In this document: one piece after another, positions 13,888 to 40,107 of the stretch
Numbering within the stretch: position 1 is the first letter of the stretch
Layout of the letters: every line of letters begins with the position of its first letter
Assembly: GCA_002729315.1 (NCBI GenBank)
Contig: PBTW01000116.1
Location: 1 to 48,210, forward strand
From: Gammaproteobacteria bacterium
Lineage (GTDB): Bacteria; Pseudomonadota; Gammaproteobacteria; Pseudomonadales; Pseudohongiellaceae
Direction of reading: 5' to 3'
DNA: 48,210 nucleotides
Program-made: the position numbers and the translations under genes
Notes under the pieces: model-generated
The model's input: only the letters and a program-made list of their open reading frames with translations
Database searches by the model: none
Told to the model about the DNA's origin: nothing

Positions 13888-14496
13888 TTGAAACTTTATC
13901 ACTGCTTTAATTCAAGGTCCTTGCGACCGCTTTGGTGTCTTGAAGAGATGGGTCTTGAGTATGAGCTGGAAGTGATGCCGTTTCCGCCGCGCTCTGAACG
14001 GGAAGGCTACCTCGATATCAATTCCCTAGGGACGGTTCCTACCTTCATCGATGGCAATCGGACCCTGACGGAATCGACTGGCATCTGTCAGTATCTGGTC
14101 GAACAGTACGGACCCACAACTCTTGCTATTAGGCAGGATGAAAAGGATTACGGTGACTATCTTAATTGGTTATATCGAAGTGATGCGACATTTACCTTTC
14201 CGCTGGCGCTGATCCTAAGATATACCCGACTCGAACCCGAGGATAGGAAGAATCCCCAGATCGTGGAGGATTACACCATCTGGTTTTATTCCCGCATCCG
14301 CGCCGTGGAAGCGGCCCTTCAGGATAAGGAATTCCTGGTAGGCGGTAGATTCACTATTGCCGATATCGCAGTGGGCTATGCACTGCATTTCGGCAAGCGT
14401 CTGGGTCTGTCCGAACGTTACAAGCCGAATACTGCCCGCTACCTTGCAGCTCTGATGTCTCGGCGGGCGTTTGAGAAAACACAAAAGATCAAATGA
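13888..14496 (+). CDS. Glutathione S-transferase family protein
   Basis: 202 residues with a TTG start supported by AGGAG at 13877-13881, six bases upstream. The N-terminal thioredoxin-like domain begins at once (MKLYHCFNSRSLRPLWCLEE) and has the glutathione-contact motifs VPTFID and ESTGICQYL; the C-terminal helical domain includes the conserved N-capping motif TIADIAVGYAL. The activating residue is probably one of the Ser near residues 9-11. The stop is 13 bases before the start of the Baeyer-Villiger monooxygenase, so the two are probably co-transcribed and may act in one detoxification or degradation pathway. Confidence 0.88.
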   Translation: MKLYHCFNSRSLRPLWCLEEMGLEYELEVMPFPPRSEREGYLDINSLGTVPTFIDGNRTLTESTGICQYLVEQYGPTTLAIRQDEKDYGDYLNWLYRSDATFTFPLALILRYTRLEPEDRKNPQIVEDYTIWFYSRIRAVEAALQDKEFLVGGRFTIADIAVGYALHFGKRLGLSERYKPNTARYLAALMSRRAFEKTQKIK

Positions 14497-14509
14497 GAAA
14501 AAGGGTGCT

Positions 14510-16000
14510 ATGAACTCAGCAGGTGCGCAGCTTTTAGATGTTGTGATTGTTGGCGCGGGCATTTCGGGGATCAGCGCCGCCTGCTACTTGAAAATGCAAT
14601 GTCCGAAAAAGCGATTTCGCATTATTGAATCGAGAGGAAGTTTAGGTGGGACCTGGGATCTTTTTCGCTATCCCGGCATACGCTCCGACAGTGACATGCA
14701 CACCTTTGGTTTCAAGTTTAAGCCTTGGACCCGGGCGAAGTCGATTTCTGACGGACCATCGATCCTCACGTATCTTAATGAAACGGTGGATGAATACGCA
14801 GTGAGGGACAGCATCGACTTCGGCGTGCGCGTGACTTCCGCCCGCTGGTTAAGCGCAGAATCAGTCTGGGAGACTGTTGCGCGGGACGGTCGTGGCCGCG
14901 AGATTCGGTATCGATCGCGCCTACTATTTATGTGCACTGGCTACTACCGCTATTCGTCGGGCTACACGCCGGAACTTCCCGGCCTTGAAGAATTCGCTGG
15001 CACGGTCGTGCATCCCCAGCTGTGGCCCGAGGATCTAGATTACAGTAACAAACGGGTCGCCGTCATTGGCAGCGGCGCCACAGCAGTGACCCTGATTCCG
15101 GCCATGGCGGATAAAGCCTCCCATGTCACAATGGTGCAGCGTTCGCCGACCTATATCGTGTCAATGCCCGGCAAGGACAAACTGGCCAATTTTTTAAGTC
15201 GTCTGTTGCCCACAACCTGGGCCTATGCAAGCATTCGCTGGCGCAATATTCGATTCCAAAATTATTTCTATAAGCAAGCTATCGGGAGGCCAGCAAAAAC
15301 CCGAGCTTATATCCTCAAACGACTGCGTAAAGCGCTTAAGCCTGAAATTGATATAGAAAAGCATTTTACCCCAAGCTATGATCCGTGGACTCAGCGGCTC
15401 TGCCTGGTGCCGGATTCCGATCTTTTTCATGTCTTGAATTCCGGTAAGGCAAATGTGATAACTGGCACTATCGAGCGCATCACTTCAGATGGCATTGAGA
15501 TGCAGGACGGAGAAAAGATTGAAGCAGAAGTGCTTGTCACTGCAACTGGCATTCAGCTGGAGCTGCTTGGGGGCGTTGACTTTTTCATGGATGATAAAAA
15601 GCTGGATTTCAGTCAGCGGTTCTTTTATCAGGGTATGATGTTCTCGGGTGTGCCAAATCTGATTCAGACTTTCGGCTACATCAATGCTTCCTGGACCTTA
15701 CGAGCCGATCTGAATTCAGAATTTGTTTGCGCCCTGTTAAAACGAATGGATGAAACGGGCACTACCCAGTGCGTACCACTGCTGCGTGATTTTGAACTTG
15801 AGATGGCCGGTCAGGACTGGGTTACTGATTTCAATCCGGGCTATCTTAAGCGTGGTAACCACTTGTTTCCTCGGCAAGGTTCGCATTCTCCCTGGCACAA
15901 TACACAGGACTACCTGTTGGACCTCAAGCTGCTGGCCGGAGGGCCACCGGATGACGGGGTGTTGCAGTTTCAGAAGACTGGCAAGGCCGACTCGGCGTAA
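14510..16000 (+). CDS. Flavin-dependent Baeyer-Villiger monooxygenase, EthA-like
   Basis: 496 residues with two dinucleotide-binding motifs, GAGISG (15-20, FAD) and GSGATA (187-192, NADPH), and between them the type I Baeyer-Villiger fingerprint FAGTVVHPQLW (F162, G164, H168, W172), complete. The segment GGTWDLFRYPGIRSDSDMH (46-64) is very close to that of the EthA group, which converts ketones to esters or oxidises sulfur of thioamides. AAGGG precedes the ATG; a frame extending to 14471 lies in the upstream gene. A soluble cytosolic enzyme. It is convergent with the TonB receptor gene, 39 bases between stops. Confidence 0.93.
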   Translation: MNSAGAQLLDVVIVGAGISGISAACYLKMQCPKKRFRIIESRGSLGGTWDLFRYPGIRSDSDMHTFGFKFKPWTRAKSISDGPSILTYLNETVDEYAVRDSIDFGVRVTSARWLSAESVWETVARDGRGREIRYRSRLLFMCTGYYRYSSGYTPELPGLEEFAGTVVHPQLWPEDLDYSNKRVAVIGSGATAVTLIPAMADKASHVTMVQRSPTYIVSMPGKDKLANFLSRLLPTTWAYASIRWRNIRFQNYFYKQAIGRPAKTRAYILKRLRKALKPEIDIEKHFTPSYDPWTQRLCLVPDSDLFHVLNSGKANVITGTIERITSDGIEMQDGEKIEAEVLVTATGIQLELLGGVDFFMDDKKLDFSQRFFYQGMMFSGVPNLIQTFGYINASWTLRADLNSEFVCALLKRMDETGTTQCVPLLRDFELEMAGQDWVTDFNPGYLKRGNHLFPRQGSHSPWHNTQDYLLDLKLLAGGPPDDGVLQFQKTGKADSA

Positions 16001-16039: not shown

Positions 16040-18238
16040 TCAGAAGTTGCCGGTTATGGTCAGGCTTGGTTGTGTGCCGCCGTGGGTGCAGCGGTATTCC
16101 AGCTCCCTGAGCCGGCCATCAGATCGACGCCCATCGTACCGCCAACGCTCGCGGCATTGAGAACCGTCGGTGAGCTGCCTGACATCAAGACGGTAAGTGA
16201 TACCGCGGCGGTCCCGGATTTCCGCAAAGATGCCAAAAAAAGGCTCTCCTACCGAGAATTCGAAATCTTTGATGTCGTATTGAAACATGCCGCCGTCAAG
16301 CCGATCGAAATATTGCGTTCCCCAGTTAAATCGCCATTCGGGAATATCGTGTCGGGTAGTCAACGTGAAGCGGCCGCGCTGGTAATTGCGAAAGCGCCGT
16401 TTCCTGCCGTCGAACGGGTCGGTGACCTGCGAGTCCTGTATGCTCAGCGTCGAATTCACTAGCAGGTTTGGAAGTGCGATCATTGCCATGCGGATACTGG
16501 CAGTAAGGGTCGCTCCGTATTCAACTCCATCCCCAAGATTTCCATTGGCCGAGGCGAGCGCGTCCTCTGAAGTCGATGCATCAATCCAGTCGATGACATC
16601 CTGATGGTCAGCGTAGAAAAATTCCGCGCTGACCACGCCAATGTCACTCGGGAGACGGTATTCGCTGTTCAAAGTGTAGCGCCACTGGGTTTGCTGACGC
16701 AGTTCGGCGTTACCTCTCAGCGTGTTGGCATCGTTGTCCTGCTCGTCATTGGCTGCTACGAAATCAGCGAAGCTCAACTGGTTGACGATACGTTCGGCAG
16801 AACCTCTTACCTGAAACATTGGTGTGATGTTGTAGCGTAGATCGATCTTCGGTTTAATAAATTCGAAGCTTCTTGAATTCTGTGCGTCACCAGTCTGATT
16901 GATCTCTGAGGTTTCGTATAACAGCGTCGATTCCAGAGTAAGTTTCGGATTGATGCGCCAGTTGTGGATGGCGAACGGCTCATAACGAATTTCTTCCACC
17001 TCAGAGTTGGCGAGACCGAGGTTCACAGGCACTAGCCCCCCAAGCGCAGTTGACGGAGCACCGGAAGCATTGAGCAGGCCGAGCGCTAGGGCGGAATTCA
17101 GAGTGGTCTGCGCACGTTCGCCGCCTAGTTCCACGCTCTGACTCTGAAGAAAATCGAATGTGTAGGAACCTCGGACAATACGCTCTTTGGTTATCGAGTT
17201 GGATTTTAGAATCAGGTTGAGCTCTTCAGTGTTGTCCGCGAAGCGCTCGAATCGTTGCCGAATTCGCAGGTTTTCATCCTGATTGGCGATACCAAGTAAT
17301 TTAAACCGAGCGCCGTTGTCAAACGTGTATTCATAGTCAAATCCACCCTCCCAGTTGTCTCTAGGGTTCGGGTTGGTCTCGCGCTCGACGAGATGTGCGA
17401 CTGGATTGCTGCGAAGATTGCTGGTTACGCGGTCAATGTCTGTGGGGGCATCCCTCTCGGCAAGCAGTCCGTTGAGCTGCAGTGTGCTTTTGCTGTTGAT
17501 TGCGTAGGCCAGATTAAAGCTCAATTCGTTGTTAGCGCCATCGGTGGTGACTTCCTCGGTAACGGTGTCGTTGGGGGAAAAATCACCCAGAATGCTGCTC
17601 TCATTGTTCAGGCTGTTGCGGTAGCGCGGCTGGCTGCGCAGAGTCATCGTGTAGTCTATTTCACCACGTTGGCCGTTTACCGCGAAAGTGCCGCCCGGTT
17701 GAATTGCATCGTCCTGTGAATAGTTGAGGGATCCTTGATAAGAAAAGCTGGTCGAGGAAAGCTCCTCAAACAGAACCACGTTGATGATCTGTCCGCTGCC
17801 TCTGACATCCAGATCTCCGGAAGTGCCGCGAATGATCTGTATTTCCTGAACCTGCGAAGAGGCGATGCGCTGGAGCATTTGCTGCGTCGAGTTGTTTTTA
17901 CCCGCGTTGCGTTTGCCGTTGATCAGAATTTCTGTAGACCCTGCGCCACTGCCAAGTCCTCTTCCGCCGCGAGACGGGCTTCCCGAAAAGCCCCCGGGCC
18001 CGCCGAATCCGCCTCCTCCGCTGCCGCGTCCGGTGGTATCTTGACCTGGGATTCTGGCCAGCATGTCACCTGCGGTGATGGGTTGCCATTCCGTGAAGTA
18101 AGCTGCCGGATAGACTACTGTAGAGCCGTCCTCCAATGCGTCTTGCGCGCGGTTTATTTCGGATGCAATAAGACCAAGCAGCAGGATGCTCGCTGCAATG
18201 AGTTTTCGCGCCGCGCGGTACTGGATGTTCCCTGCCAT
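16040..18238 (-). CDS. TonB-dependent outer membrane receptor, paralogue of the one at 36.7 kb
   Basis: 732 residues. Signal peptide to about residue 31, TonB-box-like STVVYPA (39-45), plug domain about 45-170 with EILINGKR, SQVQEIQIIRGTSGDLDVRG, and a 22-stranded-type barrel ending in Phe, as needed for outer membrane assembly. A glycine-rich insert (about 69-100) interrupts the early plug. The protein is closely paralogous to the receptor at 36725: shared stretches include YPA-YF, DML-RIPG, IIRGTSG-LDVRG and AIHNW in the same order. No STN signalling domain. It is divergent from the Tat-aminotransferase unit, so both probably serve one substrate. The ligand is unknown; length is typical. 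Confidence 0.9.
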   Translation of the reverse strand: MAGNIQYRAARKLIAASILLLGLIASEINRAQDALEDGSTVVYPAAYFTEWQPITAGDMLARIPGQDTTGRGSGGGGFGGPGGFSGSPSRGGRGLGSGAGSTEILINGKRNAGKNNSTQQMLQRIASSQVQEIQIIRGTSGDLDVRGSGQIINVVLFEELSSTSFSYQGSLNYSQDDAIQPGGTFAVNGQRGEIDYTMTLRSQPRYRNSLNNESSILGDFSPNDTVTEEVTTDGANNELSFNLAYAINSKSTLQLNGLLAERDAPTDIDRVTSNLRSNPVAHLVERETNPNPRDNWEGGFDYEYTFDNGARFKLLGIANQDENLRIRQRFERFADNTEELNLILKSNSITKERIVRGSYTFDFLQSQSVELGGERAQTTLNSALALGLLNASGAPSTALGGLVPVNLGLANSEVEEIRYEPFAIHNWRINPKLTLESTLLYETSEINQTGDAQNSRSFEFIKPKIDLRYNITPMFQVRGSAERIVNQLSFADFVAANDEQDNDANTLRGNAELRQQTQWRYTLNSEYRLPSDIGVVSAEFFYADHQDVIDWIDASTSEDALASANGNLGDGVEYGATLTASIRMAMIALPNLLVNSTLSIQDSQVTDPFDGRKRRFRNYQRGRFTLTTRHDIPEWRFNWGTQYFDRLDGGMFQYDIKDFEFSVGEPFFGIFAEIRDRRGITYRLDVRQLTDGSQCRERWRYDGRRSDGRLRELEYRCTHGGTQPSLTITGNF

Positions 18239-18588
18239 AAGTCAGCTAAAATCTGCTTGCAGTCGACCGGAGTCCGACCAGAGAGCCCTTTAAACTCAGG
18301 GCGAGCGGCAGTTTACTGATAATGAGGCGAAATTCCTCGCATCTGTTACAAACTGACAAGATTAAAATGGCTTGGGCGAAGTCTGCGCACTGAGCCAGAA
18401 CCGCAGCGCCGCCTTTCGGGGGTCAGCTGGGCGTCGTTAAAGGAGTAGGTTTCGAGCCCGGTAATTTTTTGGCAATTGCCAGATACTGACGCTATGATGG
18501 CGTGAGGAATCCAGACAGCCCTCGAATGAAATTGCAGCACCTCGGGCGCTCTAATGCACAACGGTTTGGTCGATTGAGGAGGACTATA
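18239..18588. other. Divergent control region of the TonB receptor and Tat-aminotransferase unit
   Basis: 350 bases between divergent genes. It holds the promoter candidate listed next; no gene-like frame other than short unsupported ones. The aminotransferase start is preceded by GAGGAGG, a strong ribosome site. No promoter for the receptor could be singled out. Confidence 0.5.
18469..18498 (+). promoter_or_regulatory. Sigma-70-like promoter with palindrome over the -35 box
   Basis: TTGGCA (18469-18474), an 18-base spacer and TATGAT (18493-18498) point towards the aminotransferase gene 90 bases downstream. The perfect palindrome TGGCAATTGCCA (18470-18481) overlaps the -35 box and could be an operator for a dimeric repressor. 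Confidence 0.5.
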
Positions 18589-19737
18589 ATGAAAACAACA
18601 CGTCGCGGCTTTTTCAAAACCGCCGGTCTTGGCACTGCAGCTGGACTGATTGGTGGCACTACACTCATTACCCCCAGCGTACTTGCACAGACACGCCATA
18701 ACCGCAGCGCGGGTGTTTTTGACAACGGCATCATCCAGCTCAGCCAGAATGAGAGCGGCAGAGGGCCTGGCCCTCGCGTTCTGGAAGCTATCAGAGCACA
18801 CACCTCTAAGCGAGTTGGCCGGGGCTACGCTCCGGATTATGTGCCGGAGCTTCAGGATGCCATTGCCTCTCATTTCAACATCGACCGCAGCAACGTAATT
18901 TTGGCTTCGGGCTCCACTTGGCTGTTACAGGGATCAGTACACGCTTTTGTAAGCGAGGATAAACCGCTGGTCACTGCGGGCCCCACATTTTCTACCAGTG
19001 AAGCCACCGCTCGAGGAGCCGGCCTTCCGGTTAAACTGGTCCCCCTGAACTCCGAAGCTAAACTCGATCTGCCAGAGATGGTCAAAGTCTCCAAAGGAGC
19101 TGGTCTGGTGTATCTGTGCAACCCCAACAATCCGTCTGGGACGGTCCATGGTCCCAAGACTGTCGATGCCGTGGTCAGGGCAATCTTGAAGGAATCTCCC
19201 GATACCTATATTCATCTCGATGAGGCTTATATCGATTACGGCGATCCAGCAAAAATCCAGACGGGTCTAGCGCTGACTCAGGAGTTCAGCAATGTCTTCA
19301 TTACCCGCTCATTTTCTAAAGCCCACGCTCTGGCCGGCATGCGTATCGGTTATGCCATGGGGAACCGGGATACGCTAAACGCCATTCGCAATTCTTGGGG
19401 CATGGGAGATGTCAGCATGCTTGGCGCCATTGCTGCGCTGACGGCATTTGAGGATCGTGAGCATATTGAGTGGGAACGCGAGGAAAACAACCGGGTTAAG
19501 GCTTTTACGGTCGGCGCTCTGAATGATCTGGGTTTTGACGTTCCTGAGTCCCACACCAACCATTTATTTGTCGATCTGCGCGCACCTGCTCGCGGATTCC
19601 GCGAGGCCTGCATGGAAAGGAAAGTCGCTGTAGGCAGGGATTTTCCACCCTGGGAAAACACGCACTGCCGCATTTCTCTAGGCAGCATGGAAGAGATGGA
19701 AGTTGCGGTTAGAGTCTTCCGTGAGGTGCTTGGCTAG
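18589..19737 (+). CDS. Tat-exported HisC-like PLP aminotransferase
   Basis: 382 residues. A twin-arginine signal (TRRGFFK, residues 4-10, hydrophobic stretch to about 32, ending VLAQ) precedes a complete class I/II aminotransferase domain of the histidinol-phosphate type: NPNNPSGT (178-185), DEAY (211-214), PLP lysine K244 in SFSKAHALAG, and the phosphate-contact Arg in MRIGYAMG. Strong ribosome site GAGGAGG. Tat export fits a PLP enzyme, which must fold around its cofactor in the cytoplasm before transport; PvdN of Pseudomonas is the known precedent for a periplasmic PLP enzyme. All active-site residues are kept, so it should be catalytic. Substrate unknown; co-located with a TonB receptor and a second Tat-exported PLP enzyme. 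Confidence 0.9.
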   Translation: MKTTRRGFFKTAGLGTAAGLIGGTTLITPSVLAQTRHNRSAGVFDNGIIQLSQNESGRGPGPRVLEAIRAHTSKRVGRGYAPDYVPELQDAIASHFNIDRSNVILASGSTWLLQGSVHAFVSEDKPLVTAGPTFSTSEATARGAGLPVKLVPLNSEAKLDLPEMVKVSKGAGLVYLCNPNNPSGTVHGPKTVDAVVRAILKESPDTYIHLDEAYIDYGDPAKIQTGLALTQEFSNVFITRSFSKAHALAGMRIGYAMGNRDTLNAIRNSWGMGDVSMLGAIAALTAFEDREHIEWEREENNRVKAFTVGALNDLGFDVPESHTNHLFVDLRAPARGFREACMERKVAVGRDFPPWENTHCRISLGSMEEMEVAVRVFREVLG

Positions 19738-19758
19738 GGTTGCCGGCATCAATAGCAT

Positions 19759-19791
19759 CGCGACTGTTGGGCTTCGGTGCCCGCAGTCGCG
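19759..19791 (+). terminator. Stem-loop after the Tat HisC-like gene
   Basis: Outer stem of eight pairs (CGCGACTG 19759-19766 with CAGTCGCG 19784-19791) encloses an inner GGGC/GCCC stem with loop TTCGGT. No T-run follows, so it may act as an RNA-stability or attenuating structure inside a three-gene transcript rather than a true terminator. Confidence 0.4.
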
Positions 19792-19851
19792 GACGCACGC
19801 CTTGACCCTGTCACCCGCTTGATGACCTGTAGTTAAAAGAACGATAACAAC

Positions 19852-20880
19852 ATGACTCATACAAAGCATTCAAAATCCCTCTTGTTCTGCCTGGTACTAA
19901 CTCCAGCCATTTGTCTGTCTGCAGCGCTGAGCGCTCAGAATGAATATCAGGCGCCTAGAACAGAATGGGGGCAGCCGGATCTCCAGGGTGTCTGGAATTT
20001 TTCCTCCAGTGTGCCCATGCAGCGTCCCGCACAATACGGTATTCGTCAGTTCCTGACGCCAGAAGAAATCGAGCAGATTCAGGCACGTCGTGCCGCTGCC
20101 GATGCCAATTCTGACTCGGCGCTTGCGATAGAGGGTGTTGACGAGTCTTACAACGACTTCTGGATAGAAAACGCCGGGATCGGCGACTTGGTGCGTACCT
20201 CGCATATTGTGTATCCCGATAACGGCCAGCTCCCCGGCCTTGTGACCGGCGCCGTTGCGCGGCAGGGGGTCTACGGTGGTGCGACCACGGGAGAAACAAG
20301 GCCCGTGCGCATTGCAGCAGGCGGCATTGGCACGGACGGTCCAGAAGATCGTGGTCTATCGGAGCGCTGCATTATCGGGTTCAATGCCGGCCCGCCATTT
20401 GTTCCCAGTCTCTACAACAACAACGTGCAGATCTTTCAGTCGAAAGACACGGCAGTCCTGATGACCGAGATGATACATGACGCCCGTATAGTGCCTTTAT
20501 ACGAGTCGTTGGACGATTTGCCGCCGCTGAACGATGATGTGCGCCTGTGGACTGGGGACTCAAAAGGCTATTGGGATCATGACACTTTGGTAGTGGTTAC
20601 GCGCAATTTCAATGGATTGGCAGCAAGCTTTGGTCAAGCCGGGACATCTACTCATAAAGTGCTCACGGAGCGCTTTACTAGGGTAGATGAGCTTACCGTA
20701 GACTATGAATTCACCGTTGATGACCCGGCAACTTTTAGCGACCGCTTTATCGGTGTCGTGTCGATGACCAAGGTCGGCGGCTTGCTTTACGAGTATGCCT
20801 GCCATGAAGGTAACTACGGCATGGTTAACATTCTCCGGGGTGCCAGAGTACAGGAGCGAGTGAATGCTTCGGGCTCTTAG
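19852..20880 (+). CDS. Exported protein of unknown function with PDLQGVW motif (copy 1)
   Basis: 342-residue precursor with a Sec signal (about 1-28, ALSAQ). The mature protein opens with WGQPDLQGVWNF (39-50) and MQRPAQY, then has the conserved blocks ERC (C173), PPFVPSLYNNNVQIFQ, MIHDARIVPL, DTLVVVT and YEYACHEGN (C317). It is predicted to be rich in beta strands. The paralogue at 31740 has the same blocks and both Cys at corresponding places. I recognise it as a widespread family of uncharacterised secreted proteins but know no function. It lies between two Tat-exported PLP enzymes in the same direction (114 and 136 bases from them), so it is probably a periplasmic partner of the same pathway. 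Confidence 0.72.
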   Translation: MTHTKHSKSLLFCLVLTPAICLSAALSAQNEYQAPRTEWGQPDLQGVWNFSSSVPMQRPAQYGIRQFLTPEEIEQIQARRAAADANSDSALAIEGVDESYNDFWIENAGIGDLVRTSHIVYPDNGQLPGLVTGAVARQGVYGGATTGETRPVRIAAGGIGTDGPEDRGLSERCIIGFNAGPPFVPSLYNNNVQIFQSKDTAVLMTEMIHDARIVPLYESLDDLPPLNDDVRLWTGDSKGYWDHDTLVVVTRNFNGLAASFGQAGTSTHKVLTERFTRVDELTVDYEFTVDDPATFSDRFIGVVSMTKVGGLLYEYACHEGNYGMVNILRGARVQERVNASGS

Positions 20881-21016
20881 TCCCCACTTTTAGGGATTTC
20901 ACCAAATCGGTTGCACTCAGCCTAAATGAGGCTTATCCTGATTTTGTTGGTGTTTCATAGGACATCATAAAACTCATTAAAAACAGTAAGATAAGAGAGC
21001 GAAAAGAGGTTATCCC

Positions 21017-22381
21017 ATGAGCAAAAACGCAGGTCTCAATCGAAGATCCTTCATGAAGAATGCTGGCTTTACAGCCCTTGCTGGCGCAACCGGCTCCCTA
21101 GCCGTTGGTGCTTCTCAGGCAAATGCTCAAGGCGGTAGCCCTTCCCAATCTTATCCTCGACACGCGAGCGGCAAGTATGACTTTGGCGCCGTTTACAATC
21201 GCGCCGGACACAATTGCGCGCGTTGGGATTCTCCACCGCGTAACTACCCCGGTGGGGAGTTCAAGTTCGGGATGGGTGTCGCTTCTATGGACTTCGAATG
21301 TGCACCCTGTATCACCGAAGCCTTGATGGAGCGGGTTCAGCACCACAGTTGGGGATATCTCGCCAGCACTGCTGAACTGACTAGCGAAATCGTGAAATGG
21401 AACGGTGAGCATCACAACAACGATATCGACGCCAGCATGGTAACACTGTCAGATGGAGTCTATCCCGGCATGATCGCTGCGATGCGTTCATTCGTGCCGC
21501 GTGGCGGCAAAGCGCTGATTATGTCTCCCGCTTACTCCGGCTTCTATACCATGGCAGGTGCGGCAAACATTGAGACCGTTGATAGCGAATTGAAATTAAT
21601 AAGCGGTCGGTATGAAATCGACTACGAGGATCTTGAGGCCAAGATGACTTCAGACGTGCGCATCTTGATTGTCTGCAACCCGCAAAACCCAACAGGTAAC
21701 GTGTGGCGCGAGGAGGAGCTGTTGCGCATTGGCCGCCTGGCTCTGGACCATGGTATCGTGGTGCTGTCGGACGAGATCCACTCTGATGTTATTCGCGGCG
21801 ATCAGAAGTTTACGCCGTTCTCTGCGCTGCCTGACCGGGATGTCGTTAGCAACAGCCTGACTTTTAACGCAATTAGCAAGACGTTTAATCTGGCCGGCAT
21901 GAAAAACGCCTACTACTACTCAAAGTCCCCAACCATGCTGCAGCGCGTGAATCAGTACCATCGCGCTGAGTTGAGCACCCTGGGCGTGGTAGCCAATGTT
22001 GCGGCCTATAAGTATGGTTGGGAATGGTTTGATCAGGCGAATGCCTACATGGATAGAACGCACACCATGATTGAGGAATATGTCAAAGCTAACATGCCCA
22101 GTGTCGGATATGTGCGCAATGAGGGTACGTACATGACATTCCTTGATTTCAGTCAGACAATGGCTTCAATCGGTGCCGATGTGCAGTATGAGTCCCACGG
22201 TAAGAGAACCCCAGAGCACTACTTCCAAGACTGGATGGTGCATAACTCCGGTGTCTATCTCAATCCGGGTTCCGTGTACGGTCAGGGCGGCGCCGGTCGC
22301 ATGCGGATGAACATTGCTTCCTCGCAAGCTGTTGTCAAAGATGTACTGGACGCGATGGCTGCTGCGGTCAACAAGGTCTGA
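21017..22381 (+). CDS. Tat-exported MalY/PatB-type PLP enzyme (aminotransferase or C-S lyase fold)
   Basis: 454 residues. Tat signal NRRSFMKN (8-15) with hydrophobic region to about 38 (ANAQ), then a complete fold-type I PLP domain: GMGVASMDFECAPCITEAL (entry motif similar to MalY and PatB), NPQNPTG (221-227), SDEIHSD (251-257) and PLP lysine K288 in NAISKTFNLAG. SDEIHxD and the MDFxxP motif favour cystathionine beta-lyase or C-S lyase relatives over ordinary transaminases. GAGG precedes the ATG. With the HisC-like enzyme at 18589 it makes two exported PLP enzymes in one unit. The gene is followed by a strong intrinsic terminator, which ends the unit. Confidence 0.9.
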   Translation: MSKNAGLNRRSFMKNAGFTALAGATGSLAVGASQANAQGGSPSQSYPRHASGKYDFGAVYNRAGHNCARWDSPPRNYPGGEFKFGMGVASMDFECAPCITEALMERVQHHSWGYLASTAELTSEIVKWNGEHHNNDIDASMVTLSDGVYPGMIAAMRSFVPRGGKALIMSPAYSGFYTMAGAANIETVDSELKLISGRYEIDYEDLEAKMTSDVRILIVCNPQNPTGNVWREEELLRIGRLALDHGIVVLSDEIHSDVIRGDQKFTPFSALPDRDVVSNSLTFNAISKTFNLAGMKNAYYYSKSPTMLQRVNQYHRAELSTLGVVANVAAYKYGWEWFDQANAYMDRTHTMIEEYVKANMPSVGYVRNEGTYMTFLDFSQTMASIGADVQYESHGKRTPEHYFQDWMVHNSGVYLNPGSVYGQGGAGRMRMNIASSQAVVKDVLDAMAAAVNKV

Positions 22382-22416
22382 GCCAGCAATCCTATCGATT
22401 GAGTAAGGTGAGAGAC

Positions 22417-22450
22417 GGGCGGATCAGTTATGCTGGTCCGCCCTTTTTTT
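22417..22450 (+). terminator. Rho-independent terminator of the Tat-aminotransferase unit
   Basis: Eleven-pair stem (22417-22427 with 22433-22443, one G-T wobble), loop TTATG, followed by seven T (22444-22450). It begins 36 bases after the stop codon. The remaining 200 bases up to the amidase start hold no gene. Confidence 0.92.
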
Positions 22451-22661
22451 GCACCCCTCTCCTGTGCAGTCTCTGGCGTAGCGGGTGATTTGGTGGCCGC
22501 AGATGCGACGCGGGTGCTGTTGAGGTGGCGTTTGATGCCTAAAGATGAGTCTAAATCAGAGTGAGGCTAGTTTTGTGTCCGGTCTAGTTTGAAGCAGACT
22601 CGGGCACGGAAAACTGGGCAGCCATATCTGTTGAACAAAGCTAATTTCCACGGGGAAGGTG

Positions 22662-24074
22662 ATGTCAGAGCCACTGCACTATCAGTCATTGATGTCAGTC
22701 GCACAGCAGCTGCGATCAAAAGAGTTATCTGCGCACGCCCTGACTGAGCATATGCTCACCCGCATTTATGGGCTTGACAACGAGTTACTCAGCTATGCGA
22801 CCGTTACTCCAGAACTGGCCAGGGCGCAGGCGCAGCGTGCCGAAGAAGAGATACAGGCTGGCCGGTATCGGGGTTTTCTGCATGGTGTGCCTGTCGCGAT
22901 AAAGGATCTGTGTTGTACCGCCGGCATTCGAACCATGGGAGGATTAAAAGTACGGCAGCAATTCGTGCCAGATTTTAACGCAACGGTAGTGCGGAAACTT
23001 GAGGAAGCAGGAGCAGTGTTACTGGGAAAACTCAACCTGACCGAAGGCGCTCTGTCTGCCTACAATCCTGAATTTCCGATTCCCAAAAACCCCTGGGGAA
23101 AAGAGCTGTGGGCGGGCGTGTCTTCTTCCGGCTCGGGCGTGGCCGTGGCGGCAGGTCTATGTTTCGCCGCTATCGGCACTGATACCGGCGGCTCTATACG
23201 TTATCCAGCTATGGCCAACGGTGTGACGGGTCTTAAACCGACCTATGGCAGAGTGAGCCGCCATGGGGTGCTCGCACTGGCGGAGTCACTTGATCACGTT
23301 GGCCCCATGGCTCGTTCCGTGGCCGACGCAGTAGCCCTGTATAACGCCATAACCGGTTATGATGAGAACGATCAAACTTCGCTGAATCGTGAGGACGCGC
23401 AGATTGCTCAGCCTGCTGCAACGAATCTAGATGGTTTGCGTCTGGGAGTAGATGCCGACTGGTTCAGCTACGGTACTGATCCGGGTTTACTCGCTGCACT
23501 CGAACAGGCGATTGGCGTGTTCAAAGCGCTCGGCATGGAATGTGTTCCGGTGGAGATGCCCCGCGAAGGCCCGACGCAATACCGAAACCTCTGGCTACCG
23601 CTGACGGGGTACGAAGCCTATCGCGCCCACCGCGAATACTTTCCTGCCAGAGAAGCTTGCTACGGAGATTATCTGGCCGATGTTCTGCGCATGGGCATGC
23701 AGATGACGGAGAAAGAATACGCCGCAGCGGTGAGGAAGCGTTCAGAATTCAGCGCACGGTTTGAAGCGGCGCTCAGTGAAGTTGATGCTGTCATCTGTCC
23801 TTCCGGAGGCATGGTATTTTCAGTCAATGCGGTCGCACAACGGGGCGACGCAAAGGCTATGAAGGAGGTGATAAAAAATTTTCAGGGCCAGTTCACTATA
23901 CCGGCAGACCTTGCCGGCACGCCCACGCTGTCGCTGCCCTGCGGATTCAATGATCGAACGCAGCCTTATGTGATGCAGTTGATGGGCAGCAAATTCGCCG
24001 AAGCCATGCTTTGTCGCATCGGCCACGCCTACCAGTCAGAAACCGATTGGCATCACCGCCATCCTGATCACTGA
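22662..24074 (+). CDS. Amidase signature family hydrolase
   Basis: 470 residues, cytosolic, no signal. The Ser-cisSer-Lys triad is complete: K81 (VAIKDLCC), cis-Ser S154 in GVSSSGSG, and nucleophile S178 in GTDTGGSIRYPA, the 24-residue Ser-Ser spacing being the one known from malonamidase. Members hydrolyse carboxylic amides, aryl acylamides or carbamates. GGGGAAGG overlaps a GTG at 22659, so I use the ATG at 22662. It lies after the terminator of the Tat-aminotransferase unit and needs its own promoter. It is not a GatA: no gatB or gatC nearby and the length is slightly short. Substrate unknown. Confidence 0.9.
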   Translation: MSEPLHYQSLMSVAQQLRSKELSAHALTEHMLTRIYGLDNELLSYATVTPELARAQAQRAEEEIQAGRYRGFLHGVPVAIKDLCCTAGIRTMGGLKVRQQFVPDFNATVVRKLEEAGAVLLGKLNLTEGALSAYNPEFPIPKNPWGKELWAGVSSSGSGVAVAAGLCFAAIGTDTGGSIRYPAMANGVTGLKPTYGRVSRHGVLALAESLDHVGPMARSVADAVALYNAITGYDENDQTSLNREDAQIAQPAATNLDGLRLGVDADWFSYGTDPGLLAALEQAIGVFKALGMECVPVEMPREGPTQYRNLWLPLTGYEAYRAHREYFPAREACYGDYLADVLRMGMQMTEKEYAAAVRKRSEFSARFEAALSEVDAVICPSGGMVFSVNAVAQRGDAKAMKEVIKNFQGQFTIPADLAGTPTLSLPCGFNDRTQPYVMQLMGSKFAEAMLCRIGHAYQSETDWHHRHPDH

Positions 24075-31739: not shown

Positions 31740-32741
31740 ATGCTCAACACAATGAATAGGAGCGCTCTAAGTCTGACTCTGGCTGGGCTGCTCGTTTCAG
31801 CGGCTGACGGTCAGATCGAGTACTCCCCTCCAACTCTGGATTTTGGCGTGCCCGATCTACAGGGCACTTGGAGTTATGAAACACGCACAGGCCTGCAGCG
31901 GCCCGCCCAATACAGCGAACTTGAGATTGACGAAGCCACCATGCTGAGCACACTCGAGCCTACCTCCAAGATTCTTGATGATTACCAAAATTTTGGTACC
32001 AACCGACAAAATGACCCTGCCAATGTGGGCGGTTACGATCCTGAATATTTCAGCATTGGGGAGTCCCTCGCACTGATTGACGGTAAATACCGCACATCAA
32101 TTATCATTGATCCGCCGGATGGACGAATTCCCTATCGTGAGCAGGGTGCTGCGATCCGACGTCGGCAGGGCAGTGCGGTATTTCAGTTTCCCGATTCCCT
32201 TGGTCGAAGCGACGGCCCCGAGGGAAGGCCGCTCTCTGACCGCTGCCTGAAGGCTTTTTCGTCGAGCACACCGTTCATCAGCAGCGTTTACAACAACAAC
32301 CTCCAAATCATCCAGAGCCCTGACCATGTTGTCCTGGTAGTCGAGATGGTTCACGACGCGCGGATCGTGAAAATCGACGAGGGGCACCGTGACCTCCCAT
32401 ACAACAAATGGCTGGGAGATTCTGTGGGTTACTACGACGGTGATACCTTGGTGGTGATCACTAAAAATTTCAGCGAGTGGGAAATTGCACAAGGCTATGG
32501 CACAAATGCCTCGATGAATATGGTGCTCACAGAGCGTTTCCATAGGGTGGCCGATGATGAACTCCGCTACGTTTTCACTATAGAGGATCCTGAGCTTTAC
32601 ACGCAGCCATGGACAGGTGAAATGCCAATGCGGCCTTCTTCTGGTTTATATGAATACTCCTGTCATGAAGGTAACCACGCCCTGCCTGGCATTCTGGCGG
32701 GGGCCCGGCGTCTTGAGATTGAAGAAGAGATAAAACGTTAG
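31740..32741 (+). CDS. Exported protein of unknown function with PDLQGTW motif (copy 2)
   Basis: 333-residue precursor, signal peptide to about residue 24; GGAG lies eight bases before the ATG. It is a paralogue of the protein at 19852, sharing PDLQGTW (38-44), LQRPAQY, GPEGRPLSDRC (C169), PFISSVYNNNLQIIQ, MVHDARIV, GDTLVVITKNF and YEYSCHEGNH (C308). The spacing of blocks is the same, and both cysteines are kept, which hints at a structural disulfide or metal site. Unlike copy 1, it is followed by a membrane methyltransferase-like gene and an acylase lipoprotein rather than PLP enzymes. Function unknown. Confidence 0.72.
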   Translation: MLNTMNRSALSLTLAGLLVSAADGQIEYSPPTLDFGVPDLQGTWSYETRTGLQRPAQYSELEIDEATMLSTLEPTSKILDDYQNFGTNRQNDPANVGGYDPEYFSIGESLALIDGKYRTSIIIDPPDGRIPYREQGAAIRRRQGSAVFQFPDSLGRSDGPEGRPLSDRCLKAFSSSTPFISSVYNNNLQIIQSPDHVVLVVEMVHDARIVKIDEGHRDLPYNKWLGDSVGYYDGDTLVVITKNFSEWEIAQGYGTNASMNMVLTERFHRVADDELRYVFTIEDPELYTQPWTGEMPMRPSSGLYEYSCHEGNHALPGILAGARRLEIEEEIKR

Positions 32742-39039: not shown

Positions 39040-40107
39040 ATGTCGCTGGCGAATAAACTGGTCGTAACGGCCCTCAAAGACTTGGCCCCTTACCAATCAG
39101 CACGCCGGATAGGCGGGATGGGTCAGATCTATCTGAACGCAAATGAATCGGCTTTCCCTCCATACCAGATGCCTGAGAACGAAACCTGGAATCGCTATCC
39201 TGATTTTTTGCCGACCGAGCTGGCGAAAGCCTACGGTCGTTATGCAAATGTGAGCCCTGACAACGTGCTGGCGGTTCGGGGGGCTGATGAAGCGATTGAT
39301 TTACTGATCAGGACCTATTGCGAGCCGCACCAGGATGCCATTCGAATTCAGAGTCCGACCTATTCGATGTACGAATTTGTCGCTCAAGCTCACGGGGTGG
39401 CGGTAGAGACGGTGCCGCTGAATGATCAGTTCGCTCTGAATGTCGACGCAAACCAGCAGGCCGCGGCTGACCAAAAGCGCTTGAAGATCTTGTTTATTTG
39501 TAATCCCAATAATCCCACTGGCAATCTGATGGCAGTGTCGGACATTATCCGCATCGCGGAGGCGCAGCGTGATCAGGCATTCGTCGTCATTGACGAGGCA
39601 TATATCGAGTACACCCCGTCCGACACCTTGCTTCCGATGCTTGCTGACCATCCCAATCTGGTGATCATTCGCACTCTATCCAAAGCATTTGCTCTGGCTG
39701 CCATTCGGGTTGGTTTCATTATCGCCGCAGAAGAGGTGCTTGAGCAGATCAACAAACTCATTCCTCCGTACCCCATGCCAGATGATAGTGCGCGGATTGG
39801 CATTAATGCACTTTCCGATCCGGGCATTGAGTACATGCGGTCCTGCTGCGAGCGGGTTATTGCTTTGAGAGAGCAGGCTCGCAAGGAATTGATTCTGCTG
39901 GATGCTATTGAGCAGGTGTATGAAAGCATGACAAATTTCCTGCTGGTGCGCTTTAAAAAGGCATCTGACGCTATGAAGCATTTATTGAACGCTGGCGTTG
40001 TTATTCGCGATCAAACTCATTTTGAACAGCTACCGCAGCATCTGCGTATTTCAGTAGGTGTTTCGAAAGATATGCAGGAAATTTTGAATCAACTGCGCCG
40101 ACTCTGA
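39040..40107 (+). CDS. HisC-like PLP aminotransferase, cytosolic
   Basis: 355 residues, no signal peptide. Histidinol-phosphate aminotransferase motifs: NANESAFPP (33-41), CNPNNPTGN (154-162), DEAY (185-188), PLP lysine K215 in TLSKAFALAAIRVGF, and C-terminal LRISVG. It is not in a histidine operon; its context is a TonB receptor upstream and a YjiH-type permease 22 bases downstream. It could be the housekeeping HisC or a catabolic relative that acts on an imported amino compound. Compared with the Tat-exported relative at 18589, the core is similar but the location differs. No clear ribosome site before the ATG. Confidence 0.88.
   Translation: MSLANKLVVTALKDLAPYQSARRIGGMGQIYLNANESAFPPYQMPENETWNRYPDFLPTELAKAYGRYANVSPDNVLAVRGADEAIDLLIRTYCEPHQDAIRIQSPTYSMYEFVAQAHGVAVETVPLNDQFALNVDANQQAAADQKRLKILFICNPNNPTGNLMAVSDIIRIAEAQRDQAFVVIDEAYIEYTPSDTLLPMLADHPNLVIIRTLSKAFALAAIRVGFIIAAEEVLEQINKLIPPYPMPDDSARIGINALSDPGIEYMRSCCERVIALREQARKELILLDAIEQVYESMTNFLLVRFKKASDAMKHLLNAGVVIRDQTHFEQLPQHLRISVGVSKDMQEILNQLRRL

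Follow-up and report, generated by a model that had tools for sequence, protein, structure and literature searches.

Enzymes dependent on pyridoxal 5'-phosphate (PLP) that are exported by the twin-arginine translocation (Tat) pathway have been described, as far as the available text of the open-licence literature searched goes, from pseudomonads alone. PvdN is a PLP enzyme exported in folded form by this route (PMC6206403; PMC6085387), and both PvdN and PtaA are reported to cross the membrane folded with their PLP (PMC6206403). In addition, PA2531 of Pseudomonas aeruginosa was named as an aminotransferase with a Tat signal in a study of Tat substrates (PMC6085387). According to the excerpt of the review consulted, PLP is "somehow regenerated" in the periplasm, by a mechanism that is left open (PMC6206403).

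In this study, we report on a window of 48,210 nucleotides, which is the whole of contig PBTW01000116.1 in a genome of 136 contigs (assembly GCA_002729315.1; 2.68 Mb, completeness 91.4%) from a gammaproteobacterium of the family Pseudohongiellaceae. Two of its genes, termed here HISC and MALY, code for a HisC/PtaA-like aminotransferase and a MalY/PatB-like lyase, both with predicted Tat leaders. The comparison of genomes gives good support to this two-enzyme pair as the unit that is kept, and not to the four-gene system, with a secreted protein (MID) and an outer-membrane receptor, which the original prediction made from the letters of the window had put forward. That prediction took PvdN as the known example of a periplasmic PLP enzyme; the precedent stands but is not the sole one, since PtaA and PA2531 also appear in the portions of the literature available to us (PMC6206403; PMC6085387). 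Neither an exported lyase of the PatB/MalY type nor such a HISC-MALY pair is described in the accessible text of the open-licence literature searched.

The two enzymes and their leaders

The best curated model for HISC was PRK09105 (NF006580), although the score of 231.2 bits is well short of its cut-off of 444. The protein also remained below the cut-offs of the HisC model (TIGR01141; 197.5 against 276.55 bits) and, by a wide margin, of the PtaA model (NF051461; 203.2 against 500 bits). Its top solved relative is 3ly1, a putative HisC (E 1.2e-55). A role in histidine biosynthesis was rejected, because HISC does not reach the HisC cut-off and two other PLP enzyme genes of the same genome pass it (337.6 and 303.1 bits). 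HISC resembles PtaA of Pseudomonas fluorescens in being a HisC-like aminotransferase of class I/II, Tat export with PLP being published for PtaA in the part of the source at hand (PMC6206403) and the leader being predicted for HISC. It differs from it in the score given above and in its link to a MALY gene in place of pyoverdine; no search for pyoverdine genes was made. By its predicted compartment and its enzyme class HISC is PtaA-like, and by the curated test it is not PtaA. HISC and PA2531 are alike in being aminotransferases with a Tat signal, predicted for HISC and listed for PA2531 (PMC6085387).

MALY scored 289 bits with the model of PatB C-S lyases (TIGR04350), below the cut-off of 340, and its top solved relatives are PatB-type C-S lyases, e.g., 6qp3 (E 1.5e-96). 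It shares with the PatB/MalY C-S beta-lyases the fold, the PLP lysine and aspartate, and the arginine. The tree of MALY, with 87 rows, set it apart from them: 50 exported rows (one of which, at L154, is without its start) were separated from 37 others without the twin-arginine (RR) leader by a branch with a support of 100, the trees being quick ones with SH-aLRT (Shimodaira-Hasegawa-like approximate likelihood ratio test) support only. As judged from this tree, the exported MALY proteins are one family apart from the leaderless PatB-type enzymes, a separate exported lineage with a PatB-like fold and active site. In the Pfam scan, both HISC and MALY matched Aminotran_1_2 only, and not Aminotran_5. 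PvdN, by contrast, is a class V enzyme; it is like HISC and MALY as a PLP enzyme with Tat export, which in these two is predicted only.

The active sites are complete. The PLP lysine, the pyridine aspartate and the carboxylate arginine were intact in all 87 aligned MALY rows, and likewise in the 94 aligned HISC rows, except for one gap at the arginine column; the lysines given by the original prediction, K244 and K288, were found exactly at those positions. As a separate observation, in the VADMDF-like motif of MALY (residues 86-93) the first D is replaced by S in 10 and by T in 1 of the 50 exported rows, and it is kept in the other 39 and in all 37 leaderless rows.

Export of both enzymes by Tat is predicted from their leaders, which are strong and typical of the pathway. 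The RR pair and an F two positions later were invariant in both alignments. A strict Tat motif with an AxA-like site was present in 39 of 40 HISC open reading frames (ORFs) and in 42 of 42 MALY ORFs picked at the loci of the family, which agrees with the twin-arginine signals given for the two enzymes in the original prediction; the sole HISC ORF failing the motif is the broken copy of genome G035. Leader calls were made with this strict motif, given that a cruder Tat flag over-calls. Identity was lower in the leader than in the mature part, both for HISC (0.57 vs. 0.62) and for MALY (0.54 vs. 0.64). The leader of the window's MALY reads MSKNAGLNRRSFMK. In HISC, the listed ORF opens upstream, at 18502, and the ATG at 18589, which is preceded by GAGGAGG, begins the leader MKTTRRGFFK. 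TatC is encoded in the genome (219.8 bits, cut-off 25.1; TatA/B lay outside the search). No such leader is present in the four further PLP enzymes related to HISC that were found in this genome (on contigs C46, C27 and C51 and in the window at 39040), so that export is not general for such enzymes here.

Linkage of the pair within the family and beyond

The family sample comprised 99 genomes, among which HISC was found in 42, MALY in 44 and both in 41 (Fisher p 4e-23, shared descent being ignored in this test). Both genes lay on one contig in 39 of the 41 genomes, always within 3,392 bases and in 28 cases within 500, in agreement with the part of the original prediction that concerns the two Tat-led PLP enzymes. 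Three arrangements were found among the linked loci: MALY followed by HISC (17), HISC followed by MALY (14) and divergent (8). In the eight divergent loci, MALY is 36-37% identical to that of the window and likewise Tat-led. That the genes stayed linked while their order was rearranged and the type of MALY changed speaks for a function in common. MALY occurred without HISC in three genomes (G015, G087 and G094), the copies of the last two being at contig ends, and HISC without MALY in G035 only, in which the copy is broken by an internal stop (G035:C20:30661-31599, L107). It must be noted that the gene calls come from a simple ORF picker; the neighbours named are therefore approximate, and for a few HISC matches no ORF was picked. 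The original prediction had itself named failing Tat leaders, leaderless homologues or an unconserved neighbourhood as grounds for giving it up; each was examined and none was found to apply.

A scan of named genomes for MALY gave at least 592 stretches, at least 582 of which were confirmed, and the best 80 were kept as 79 loci. Among these best 80, relatives with 32-46% identity came from Acidobacteriota, Gemmatimonadota, Woeseiaceae and Alphaproteobacteria (Emcibacteraceae and Kordiimonadaceae), together with one record each from Verrucomicrobiota and Chloroflexota. The last of these groups among Gemmatimonadota in the tree, and the record may be misplaced. Outside the family, MALY relatives bear the RR leader wherever the start is present.

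An adjacent HISC-MALY pair was found in two Acidobacteriota genomes, G482 and G486, and both proteins nest inside those of the family. As read from these tree positions, the pair reached the Acidobacteriota together. In G482 (C15; L230 and L146), the family-type pair is followed farther along by an exported MALY of the Acidobacteriota type, apparently on the same contig, which makes misbinning unlikely; the G486 pair is on a contig of 25 kb and misbinning is possible there. A fusion of HISC and MALY in G486 (an open frame of 1151 residues) was considered and rejected, as HISC is bounded by a start and a stop of its own, with MALY after it.

In Gemmatimonadota, with 279 genomes, MALY (E ≤ 1e-110) was present in 49 and a close HISC (at least 495 bits) in 4, and the overlap of 3 genomes has a chance probability of 0.018. 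The two genes are adjacent in all three, in tandem in two and divergent in one. In one Gemmatimonadota genome, G473, MALY groups with those of Gemmatimonadota, and the HISC proteins of the family have the G473 HISC as their nearest outgroup, so that HISC was apparently combined with at least two lineages of MALY.

More widely, at least one exported gene of the HISC family, mostly distant, was present in 27 of 31 genomes with MALY (all but G492 were examined; G474, G476 and G483 had no match). In a control of one class, to be set beside 31 genomes that span several phyla, only the window's own genome and G110 of 229 had such a gene among the matches listed (E ≤ 1e-40, leader region covered). 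Perhaps exported MALY works elsewhere with other exported PLP enzymes. In the class, MALY at E ≤ 1e-110 was found in 1 of 229 genomes, the window's own; MALY-like proteins at E ≤ 1e-50 were found in 6 of 369, the other five matches being leaderless and beginning at query residue 52 or later.

Apart from the pair, tandem arrays of Tat-led HISC-family genes were observed at L243-L249, with 8, 6, 6, 6, 5 and 3+3 copies (the last on two short contigs) in G497, G491, G493, G495, G494 and G490, respectively. They form one clade, and the hosts are Emcibacteraceae, Kordiimonadaceae and a related alphaproteobacterium.

Proposed function and alternative explanations

HISC and MALY very probably form an exported functional pair acting in one pathway. 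The explanation proposed as a whole, a two-enzyme periplasmic PLP module, is put forward tentatively, at somewhat less than even confidence, and we infer its chemistry and substrate as follows. Each enzyme would fold around PLP in the cytoplasm and then be exported with it, as is reported for PvdN and PtaA. The substrate would be a compound with a free amino-acid end present in the periplasm, such as cysteine or serine with a substituent on S or O, or the end residue of a larger molecule. The original prediction proposed, as a hypothesis, that an amine- or sulfur-containing ligand might enter through the receptor and be deaminated or cleaved ahead of the inner membrane. MALY would cut the beta bond to give ammonia and pyruvate along with the leaving group, a thiol or another; we lean slightly towards beta-elimination as its main reaction. 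HISC would transaminate the same or a partner compound, with pyruvate as the acceptor that turns pyridoxamine phosphate back to PLP, and the remaining amide bonds of the molecule would be processed by amidases and other C-N hydrolases encoded nearby. Coupling of the pyruvate from MALY to the turnover of HISC is possible, although we regard it as rather unlikely, and a self-supplied periplasmic transamination cycle, in which MALY pyruvate regenerates the PLP of HISC and the module has been passed between phyla, is doubtful. In favor of this explanation, both active sites are complete, the Tat leaders are conserved, TatC is encoded, and the two genes are kept together in the family and adjacent in genomes of two other phyla. 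Moreover, the nearest solved and curated relatives of MALY are C-S beta-lyases, PtaA is among the nearest curated models of HISC, and amidases recur next to MALY.

Several results weigh against this explanation. Neither MALY nor HISC attains the curated cut-offs of the families compared above (PatB for the former; PtaA, PRK09105 and HisC for the latter), so their reactions may differ from those of these families. The association test in the family takes no account of shared descent, and G070 and G088 carry HISC and MALY on separate contigs. Among the 49 Gemmatimonadota genomes with exported MALY, 46 are without a close HISC, which means that MALY can work without it. In the same phylum, another exported subfamily of HISC (about 305-365 bits, E ≤ 1e-90) coincides with MALY in 1 of 35 genomes, with 6.1 expected; the idea that every exported HISC-like subfamily is a MALY partner was rejected on this count. 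Similarly, HISC at E ≤ 1e-50 was found in 1 of 369 genomes of the class, the window's own, so the pair is lineage-bound and the notion of a pair common in the class was rejected. Finally, the amidase of the window is without a signal peptide and would act in the cytoplasm.

The proximity of PtaA to HISC among curated models also suits a different explanation, in which a secreted product made by the cell itself, a siderophore or another peptide, is modified by the pair during its export, in the way that PvdN and PtaA act on pyoverdine; periplasmic tailoring of pyoverdine is the role given for PtaA in the available part of the source (PMC6206403). We consider this improbable, since the neighbours matched to families are hydrolases, oxidoreductases, glutathione S-transferase and housekeeping genes, and no peptide-synthetase domain was found among the scanned neighbours at the family loci, the genomes themselves not having been searched for non-ribosomal peptide synthetase genes.

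It is also conceivable, at a still lower probability, that the enzymes act on D-amino acids of the cell wall or the surroundings, with MALY serving as a racemase or deaminase of amino acids in the periplasm and HISC as a D-amino-acid transaminase. Enzymes of the MalY/MetC type can have a side racemase activity, and in Woeseiaceae (L135) the genes next to exported MALY code for a Tat-led M20 peptidase, a hydantoinase and a hydantoin racemase. However, the nearest solved relatives of MALY are C-S lyases, and no racemase or peptidoglycan enzyme was found among the scanned neighbours at the family loci. Chance adjacency of unrelated exported PLP enzymes in a lineage rich in Tat exports would fit the many Tat-led proteins of these lineages and the Gemmatimonadota subfamily that so rarely meets MALY, but it is very improbable given the linkage within 3.4 kb in 39 of 41 genomes across three arrangements and two kinds of MALY, the nesting of both proteins of the Acidobacteriota pairs in the family, and the adjacency in 3/3 Gemmatimonadota genomes with close HISC and MALY.

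With regard to the two-enzyme module, periplasmic PLP chemistry seems to be of wider occurrence, given that a family of exported PatB-like lyases extends over Pseudomonadota, Acidobacteriota and Gemmatimonadota. The retention of the pair through rearrangements, together with its presence in other phyla, points to a periplasmic amino-acid chemistry not yet described. In the lineage of the window the exported lyase is bound to an exported transaminase, which offers a concrete pair for testing cofactor turnover. If true, the self-supplied cycle would explain how an aminotransferase can complete its turnover in the periplasm, away from the cytoplasmic pool of keto acids.

Layout of the window and neighbouring genes

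The features of the locus are provided in Table 1. HISC, MID and MALY are co-directional, with intergenic gaps of 114 and 136 bases, and the strong terminator has the longest stem detected in the terminator scan. The promoter scan was uninformative, with 5 found and 5.5 expected. The layout first described, with the secreted protein between the enzymes, the terminator after them and a TonB receptor divergent, was confirmed, the receptor having a Plug domain; the amidase, a commoner neighbour than MID or the receptor, had not been listed.

Table 1. Features of the HISC-MALY locus in the window.
Feature	Position	Strand	Basis or remark
HISC, Tat-led HisC/PtaA-like PLP aminotransferase (predicted), 382 aa	18589-19737	+	Aminotran_1_2 match; PLP lysine K244
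HISC Tat leader (predicted), residues 1-33	18589-18687	+	TRRGFF, hydrophobic core, V-L-A before Q; cleavage site by eye
MID, secreted protein, PDLQGVW motif, multicopy family, 342 aa; local partner only	19852-20880	+	
MALY, Tat-led MalY/PatB-like PLP lyase (predicted), 454 aa	21017-22381	+	PatB model, solved PatB relatives, tree; PLP lysine K288
MALY Tat leader (predicted), residues 1-37	21017-21127	+	NRRSFMK, hydrophobic core, A-N-A before Q; cleavage site by eye
Intrinsic terminator 3' of MALY	22417-22450	+	Stem at 22417-22443, 12 pairs, then seven T
Outer-membrane receptor, Plug domain, 732 aa; local partner	16040-18238	-	Plug match; divergent from HISC
Amidase without signal peptide; recurring neighbour of the pair	22659-24074	+	Amidase PF01425
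Flavin monooxygenase-like protein	14471-16000	+	Near the pair in closest relatives only (L066, L067, L069)

MID and the receptor are local partners only. MID lies between the two enzymes in 5 of the 41 genomes with the pair (G000, G074, G093, G029 and G012) and a divergent receptor is nearby in 4 (the first four of these), contig ends possibly hiding a few; receptor relatives at 58% identity occur farther off in G038 and G090. These counts, and the multicopy nature of the MID family, are what told against the four-gene system, for which co-occurrence with the PDLQGVW family and this receptor had been the check suggested. The PDLQGVW family has 24 matches in the genome, e.g., at 31767-32714 of the window and on contigs C109, C53 and C41. 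MID had no match in Pfam or NCBIfam, and its predicted structure is poor (predicted local distance difference test, pLDDT, 64.8). Its top fold matches are retinol- and fatty-acid-binding barrels (E 1.7e-3, none reaching E ≤ 0.001), which is a hint, and no more, of a ligand-binding barrel. The receptor matched the Plug domain PF07715 (27.0 bits, cut-off 23.9), and no model of a TonB-dependent barrel was matched in a comparison with sequence models alone.

Amidases recur beside the pair more often than MID or the receptor. Counterparts of the window amidase at 56-71% identity were found in 14 other family loci; other amidases, with 24-36% identity, lie near divergent MALY genes (e.g., L080, L091 and L093), and in three Acidobacteriota closely related to one another the amidases that directly follow MALY have 32-33%. 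At L089, an M20 amidohydrolase with a signal-like start is among the neighbours of MALY. Genes for C-N hydrolases made up 33 of 285 near the pair and 3 of 248 far from it in family loci, and 10 of 182 near and 1 of 152 far in the other loci, a count that is partly circular because all seeds but the amidase were drawn from these same neighbourhoods. Read with this limit, C-N bond hydrolysis is a recurring theme among the neighbours.

Other genes were observed beside the enzymes outside the family. In Woeseiaceae (L135:9995-15874 and L142:599-6447), exported MALY lies beside a Tat-led M20 peptidase, a dihydropyrimidinase and a gene of the DapA family; in L135 hydantoinase and hydantoin-racemase genes are named among its neighbours. 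In Gemmatimonadota, a Tat-led protein follows HISC (L368:5299-5955 and L370:7264-7800), and in L368 it stands between HISC and MALY; it is VOC (vicinal oxygen chelate)/glyoxalase-like by eye, with no family search behind this label. In Acidobacteriota (L144:10001-15673 and L143:10001-15726), Tat-led MALY is accompanied by a Tat-led protein of 91 residues, an amidase, a Tat-led metallohydrolase of the deacetylase type and a Tat-led DgaE-like PLP lyase, which in L144 is below its own cut-off and would bring the kinds of exported PLP enzyme to three. At L136:6221-7450, a Tat-led class V aminotransferase is encoded three genes away from exported MALY.

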